Positions 34,276 to 34,651 of a stretch of 64,000 nucleotides of DNA are shown piece after piece. The position numbers and the translations under genes were made by a program. Positions within the stretch are counted from its first letter, which is position 1, and the number at the start of each line of letters is the position of its first letter. Source of the DNA: a virus. The notes under the pieces were generated by a model. That model did not search any database. It saw nothing but the letters and a program-made list of their open reading frames with translations, and was not told the DNA's origin. The stretch is from positions 1 to 64,000 of the IMG/VR virus record IMGVR_UViG_3300036790_000419; one strand, written 5' to 3'.

Positions 34276-34369
34276 TGATATCACAAGGTGCTAGCTGATA
34301 TCTTTTCAGCCTCCAGGTGATATCAGCTAGCACCTTGTGATAGCTATCAGCGGGTGATATCTTTTCAGC
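34276..34369 (+). promoter_or_regulatory. Iteron-like control region of the RHH gene
   Basis: TGATATC at 34276, 34296, 34318 and 34355 plus TGATAGCTATCA at 34338-34349, spaced 20, 22, 20 and 17 bp. Two sites lie in a perfect 24-bp inverted repeat (34279-34302 and 34319-34342, 16-bp spacer). TGATATCTTTTCAGC is directly repeated (34296-34310, 34355-34369). The last repeat ends one base before the RHH start codon. Fits an autoregulatory operator or a partition/replication site. Confidence 0.7.
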
Positions 34370-34651
34370 GTGGGCAAGGGCGATTTCCTTCTCCGGCTGG
34401 ACCCGGAACTGCTCGCCGAGGTGCGCAAGGCGGCCGAGGGCGAGGGCGTTTCCGTGTCCGGCTTCATCCGGGAGGCTGTCGCCCTGCGGCTGAGCCAGGG
34501 CAGTTTCCCCAGGCCAGCGTCCCGCGCGGACCTGCTGGCGGAAATCGCCGATGTCGCGTCCAAGGTCAGGGCGGGCTTCGTCCTGGTGCCCGCGGCCGAG
34601 GTTCCCGCCCCCGGCTCGTGGTCGGGCCTCATGGACGGGGAGGTCCCGTGA
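34370..34651 (+). CDS. Ribbon-helix-helix DNA-binding protein
   Basis: 93 residues. FLLRLDPELLAEVRKAAEGEGVSVSGFIREAVALRL (6-41) is the ribbon-helix-helix pattern of CopG/Arc/ParG-type proteins: a beta strand with alternating residues, helix A, a VS-x-SGFI turn and helix B. The C-terminal half probably mediates oligomerisation. These proteins bind repeated short palindromes as strings of dimers, matching the regularly spaced TGATATC sites in front of the gene. The GTG start has no separate ribosome-binding site and may be leaderless. Confidence 0.8.
   Translation: MGKGDFLLRLDPELLAEVRKAAEGEGVSVSGFIREAVALRLSQGSFPRPASRADLLAEIADVASKVRAGFVLVPAAEVPAPGSWSGLMDGEVP

Follow-up and report, generated by a model that had tools for sequence, protein, structure and literature searches.

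A half-site array in front of a ribbon-helix-helix gene is a probable autorepressor operator in a large tailed phage

Introduction

What is the role of an array of short repeats located directly in front of a small ribbon-helix-helix (RHH) gene in a viral genome? The sequence-only reading of this locus had proposed iterons belonging to a plasmid copy-control or partition module. The locus is part of the virus record IMGVR_UViG_3300036790_000419 (148,913 bp, hereafter called G000), and the window, i.e. the whole stretch of DNA analysed, corresponds to its bases 1-64000. We characterized the array, the gene and their surroundings in this genome and in four related IMG/VR genomes, each with a single orthologue of the RHH gene. 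Our analyses make it very probable that the repeats and the RHH gene together represent a phage autorepressor with its own operator. The features of the locus are collected in Table 1.

The replicon and its relatives

The genes of the record match phage families for DNA polymerase, DnaB-like helicase, clamp loader, terminase large subunit, portal, head protease and tail fibre, and the portal protein, over 77% of its length, shares 50% identity with its counterpart in Microbacterium phage Magritte. Judged from this gene content, the replicon is a large tailed phage (~149 kb) with its own replisome and virion genes, not a plasmid. Its G+C content is 70%, and the host is probably an actinobacterium. 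No tyrosine integrase was detected in G000 or in the four related genomes, and near-match searches in which 25 kb of the window served as query retrieved no phage or plasmid. Of note, a gene for a 987-aa radical SAM protein (Radical_SAM_N2 + Radical_SAM, L003:11000-13963), devoid of a PHROG match, is a tailed-phage gene kept in all five genomes.

The relatives are IMGVR_UViG_3300050821_010639 (G001), 3300036792_000267 (G002), 3300036792_000284 (G003) and 3300036831_000148 (G004), whose RHH orthologues are 68%, 63%, 40% and 45% identical to the 93-aa protein of G000, respectively. G001 is co-linear with G000 along its length. Searches for relatives using 15-base patterns yielded dozens of loci. 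G004 was the only genuine addition to the relatives already known, and the remaining loci are chance matches without a dense cluster, nearly all in AT-richer contigs.

Table 1. Features of the RHH locus (positions in the window; operator and promoter assignments are predictions)
Feature	Position	Strand	Remarks
Upstream gene, small Cys-rich zinc-ribbon-like protein	33921..34262	+	stop 12 bp before array
Operator array, ten STGMTA half-sites	34275..34361	.	six forward, four reverse
Forward STGMTA half-sites	34275, 34288, 34295, 34317, 34337, 34354	+	
Reverse STGMTA half-sites	34279, 34321, 34328, 34345	-	
Left arm, perfect 24-bp inverted repeat	34279..34302	.	distal operator block
16-bp loop TTTTCAGCCTCCAGGT	34303..34318	.	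orientation opposite to same loop in G001 and G002
Right arm, perfect 24-bp inverted repeat	34319..34342	.	overlaps core operator
Core operator	34328..34361	.	half-sites -42(<), -33(>), -25(<), -16(>) from start codon
-35-like hexamer TTGTGA	34335..34340	+	identical in G001, G002, G004
-10-like hexamer TATCTT (TANNNT)	34358..34363	+	17 bp after TTGTGA, 6 nt before GTG
RHH gene	34370..34651	+	93 aa, GTG start, without Shine-Dalgarno; putative autorepressor

A dense array of half-sites

The array includes TGATATC sites at 34276, 34296, 34318 and 34355, as well as GTGATAGCTATCAG at 34337-34350. The centres of these five sites are spaced by about 20, 22, 22 and 15 bp; the spacing of about two turns initially attributed to them thus holds for the first three intervals but not for the last. 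Counting both strands, TGATATC occurs seven times in the window for 0.66 expected, a number reached in none of 100 shuffles, and six of the seven occurrences fall in the array. The repeat unit is better described as the half-site STGMTA, with the extended consensus KGTGMTAKC. Ten such half-sites are found in 85 bp (34275-34359, both strands counted), separated by 4, 7, 8-9 or more bp, with gaps, whereas the maximum in 100 simulated first-order Markov genomes of the same size was two to four per 95 bp. No other cluster of at least four half-sites is present in the 149-kb record. The repeats in front of the RHH gene are therefore real and far from chance. They had been described as ending at the start codon. 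They do lie directly upstream of the gene, but the array, whose final GATATC extends to 34361, stops 8 nt short of the GTG at 34370.

Half-sites precede the RHH gene in all five genomes, where they form the densest cluster of each, with 10 copies in G000, 9 in G001, 8 in G002, 3 in G003 and 5 in G004. A check for relatives with the gene and without the repeats, as the sequence-only reading had suggested, thus found repeats in four of four, G003 having the fewest. The half-site at -16 is forward in five of five genomes, that at -24/-25 is reverse in four of five and that at -32/-33 is forward in four of five. The start-proximal half-sites are hence kept among relatives, while copy number and the distal part vary. 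The best conserved part is the core operator, in which half-sites alternate in orientation at a pitch of 8-9 bp, and at least 20 identical bases are found across CACCTTGTGATAGCTATCAG in G000, G001 and G002.

The array is distinct from another repeated element of these phages, the 13-bp palindrome ACTTGANTCAAGT, in line with the proposal that it stands outside the common operator network. Allowing for up to 2 mismatches, this palindrome is present 32 times in the window for 0.5 expected (e.g. at 25286 and at 35265, the copy nearest to the array), and each of the five genomes harbours 17-35 copies. It contains a -35-like TTGAC, and its sequence suggests that it is likely the shared promoter/operator of the phage.

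The RHH protein

The assignment of the gene behind the array to the RHH proteins stands, with an RHH_1 match of the 93-aa protein (E 1.3e-6) above the Pfam cut-off. Among the five proteins, those of G000, G001 and G003 pass the curated PF01402 cut-off, that of G002 falls below it, and that of G004 shows weak matches to Arc and NikA-like proteins. The structure model has a modest confidence (mean pLDDT 62.9). It features helices at residues 12-25 and 29-42, with pLDDT values of about 80, and the strand is not formed in the monomer model. Foldseek matches of this model are Arc, CopG, NikA and TacA, at E values of 0.12 and above. Within the limits of such a model, the predicted fold agrees with an RHH protein.

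The protein has no match among 50,697 phage records, and no RHH_1 match was found in Microbacterium phage Magritte, a distant relative. A match among genome contigs came from an Acidobacteria MAG, whose RHH gene is unrelated and is not accompanied by the array.

Promoter-like sequence and autoregulation

The order TTGTGA-16/17-TANNNT-6 nt-start is kept in G000, G001, G002 and G004, with TATCAT as the -10 of G004. In G003, the -10 is TAGCTT and the -35 is TTGCAT. The distance of 6 nt between the -10 and the start codon is found in all five genomes. Among 215 predicted genes, a TTG-TANNNT pair at this leaderless distance is present only for the RHH gene and for one other, at 67105. A strict scan for the sigma-70 consensus misses the predicted RHH promoter, which thus rests on position and conservation. 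Leaderless mRNAs are a common feature of Mycobacterium tuberculosis, in which the usual -10 is a TANNNT box located 7-12 bp ahead of the transcript start (PMC3898074). As the RHH gene has no Shine-Dalgarno sequence, we infer that its mRNA is likely leaderless and starts at the GTG.

The half-sites at -16, -25 and -33 overlie this TTGTGA/TATCTT predicted promoter and are kept in relatives. This overlap with the RHH gene's own conserved promoter-like sequence points to autoregulation rather than to the maintenance module initially envisioned, and since the half-sites overlap both the -10 and the -35, to repression rather than activation. As there is no other cluster of at least four half-sites in the genome, the main target would be the gene's own promoter. 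We propose that the 93-aa protein would bind the STGMTA half-sites (KGTGMTAKC) as dimers, the four alternating half-sites from -42 to -11, at their 8-9 bp pitch, spanning the -35/-10 region of its own promoter. The bound protein would then exclude RNA polymerase, such that the gene would shut itself off at a sufficient product level. The mirrored distal block, about 40 bp (four turns) upstream, would add cooperative binding. DNA binding, promoter use and repression are all inferred from the position of the sites and by analogy with Arc- and CopG-type autorepressors. Against this reading, the left half of the array exceeds what an autorepressor requires.

Close parallels exist with known RHH repressors. 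P22 Arc (PDB 1par, 1myl), also a small phage RHH protein, is among the best solved-structure matches. Its operator overlaps a promoter, and its target in the ant immunity region is a single pair of half-sites spaced by 11 bp. In contrast, the present locus comprises ten STGMTA half-sites, with a pitch of 8-9 bp in the core, together with a mirrored distal block and a gene of leaderless type, and sequence similarity to Arc is at the superfamily level only (E 0.59). CopG of pMV158/pLS1, whose Pfam family (RHH_1/CopG) the protein matches above cut-off, autoregulates over its own promoter. The present system differs from it in the sequence of the operator and in the replicon, a phage that encodes its own replisome. 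In addition, no rep partner was seen among the neighbours of the RHH gene, which were those searched for rep matches.

The operators of antitoxins typically consist of repeated palindromes that overlie the promoter of the module itself. The RHH domain of our protein has weak matches to HicB, TacA and other antitoxin families, and, as for the operators of HicB, TacA and VapB types, it is combined with repeated palindromes at its own predicted promoter. The protein might therefore be an antitoxin, with the array as the operator of the module and a toxin that escapes the libraries. Nevertheless, no toxin was recognized near the RHH gene: the neighbouring 82-aa and 236-aa genes match no toxin family, PADLOC found none either, and the next gene downstream is about 360 bp away in three genomes and about 125 bp away in two. 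We regard an antitoxin as unlikely.

The surroundings of the gene have a few additional features. The end of the upstream Cys-rich frame is recognizable before the array in all five genomes, and no intrinsic terminator was found for that gene. Just 3' of the RHH gene, at 34661-34705, lies a single-copy element (TAGACCAATT..CGTATNAAAGCTTGTCTTTG) that is recognizable in five of five genomes and has no Rfam match. Further on, the interval up to the next gene includes about 230 bp of GC-rich sequence (34770-35010 of the window), which is conserved in G000, G001 and G002 and missing from G003 and G004.

Plasmid maintenance systems

If the locus were a partition system, the RHH protein would be a ParB-like centromere binder of the ParG or pSM19035 omega type and the array would be its parS. 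Like the locus of omega (ParB), the array is associated with an RHH protein and consists of short repeats in both orientations, some with a 7-bp tandem spacing, that overlap a predicted promoter; its distal block contains TATCACA, an exact match to the omega heptad WATCACW. The parS arrays of omega also overlap promoters, and omega-type partition requires four or more contiguous WATCACW heptads (PMC9499535). In contrast, the half-sites are not contiguous 7-bp heptads, and the array is down to three of them in G003. Moreover, a ParA-type ATPase (PF13614) was found in none of the five genomes, while the same search was positive in 14 of 14 control genomes, and the record is that of a tailed phage without a tyrosine integrase. 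With this negative search and its working controls, the partition reading was dropped, and we give it hardly any credence. The broader proposal of an iteron, copy-control or partition module is likewise not supported: the replicon is a tailed phage without ParA, the KGGxGK motif is absent among the predicted proteins of G000 and no initiator-type gene was seen adjoining the RHH gene.

Inverted repeat and loop inversion

The perfect 24-bp inverted repeat previously noted is confirmed. Its two arms are 100% complementary and are separated by a 16-nt loop. The repeats might act as a DNA or RNA structure, either as a hairpin or as replication-origin iterons, instead of an operator. A strong fold is indeed predicted in G000, G001 and G002. 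Nevertheless, the paired bases differ between genomes, with other bases paired in G001, and the G003 sequence folds no better than shuffles (z about 0). No intrinsic terminator was called, and iterons lack an adjoining initiator gene. A structural role hence appears very unlikely. Rfam matches to microRNA families over the array are far below gathering scores and merely reflect the hairpin.

The loop is inverted between genomes. The G000 loop aligns in inverted orientation with that of G001 (score 26, versus -7 for the direct alignment) and that of G002 (23 versus -4), whereas the G001 and G002 loops align directly with each other (score 19). No inverted score of this level was reached in 2000 shuffles. 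As G001 and G002 align directly together, the sequences indicate that the inversion has occurred on one lineage. For chloroplast genomes, small inversions are reported in which a hairpin loop is flipped between its inverted repeats. That the 16-bp loop might be an invertible segment flipping repeatedly in phage populations, thereby altering the cooperation between distal block and promoter, is a distant prospect.

Other potential targets

The RHH protein might also control other phage genes, as a stage switch, for instance through a site in the radical SAM gene. The candidate second target is the palindrome GTGATATCCCCGAGGGATATCAC (GATATC-N7-GATATC) at 76879-76901 of the phage (L003:12879-12901). 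Its two GATATC are 13 bp apart, a spacing also found in the array, and neither G000 nor G002 has another such pair outside the array. It is conserved at the codon level in G000, G001 and G002, where it is among the top windows of the gene. Nevertheless, it is located within conserved coding sequence, G003 and G004 lack it, and conservation at synonymous sites is higher elsewhere in the gene. Coding constraint may explain its conservation. A wider regulatory role is accordingly improbable, if less so than the other alternatives discussed here.

Significance

This analysis replaces a plasmid-maintenance reading with one of phage self-regulation. Self-regulation of this type is ordinary, and the locus is notable mainly because the block is kept in every relative found and a short piece of it is flipped. 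It provides a candidate protein-operator pair, whose operator exists in five natural variants in a group of large and poorly known phages of actinobacterial type, as well as an example of a short loop that has been inverted between the arms of an operator repeat. If the loop were truly invertible, it would give the phage two settings of its repressor.
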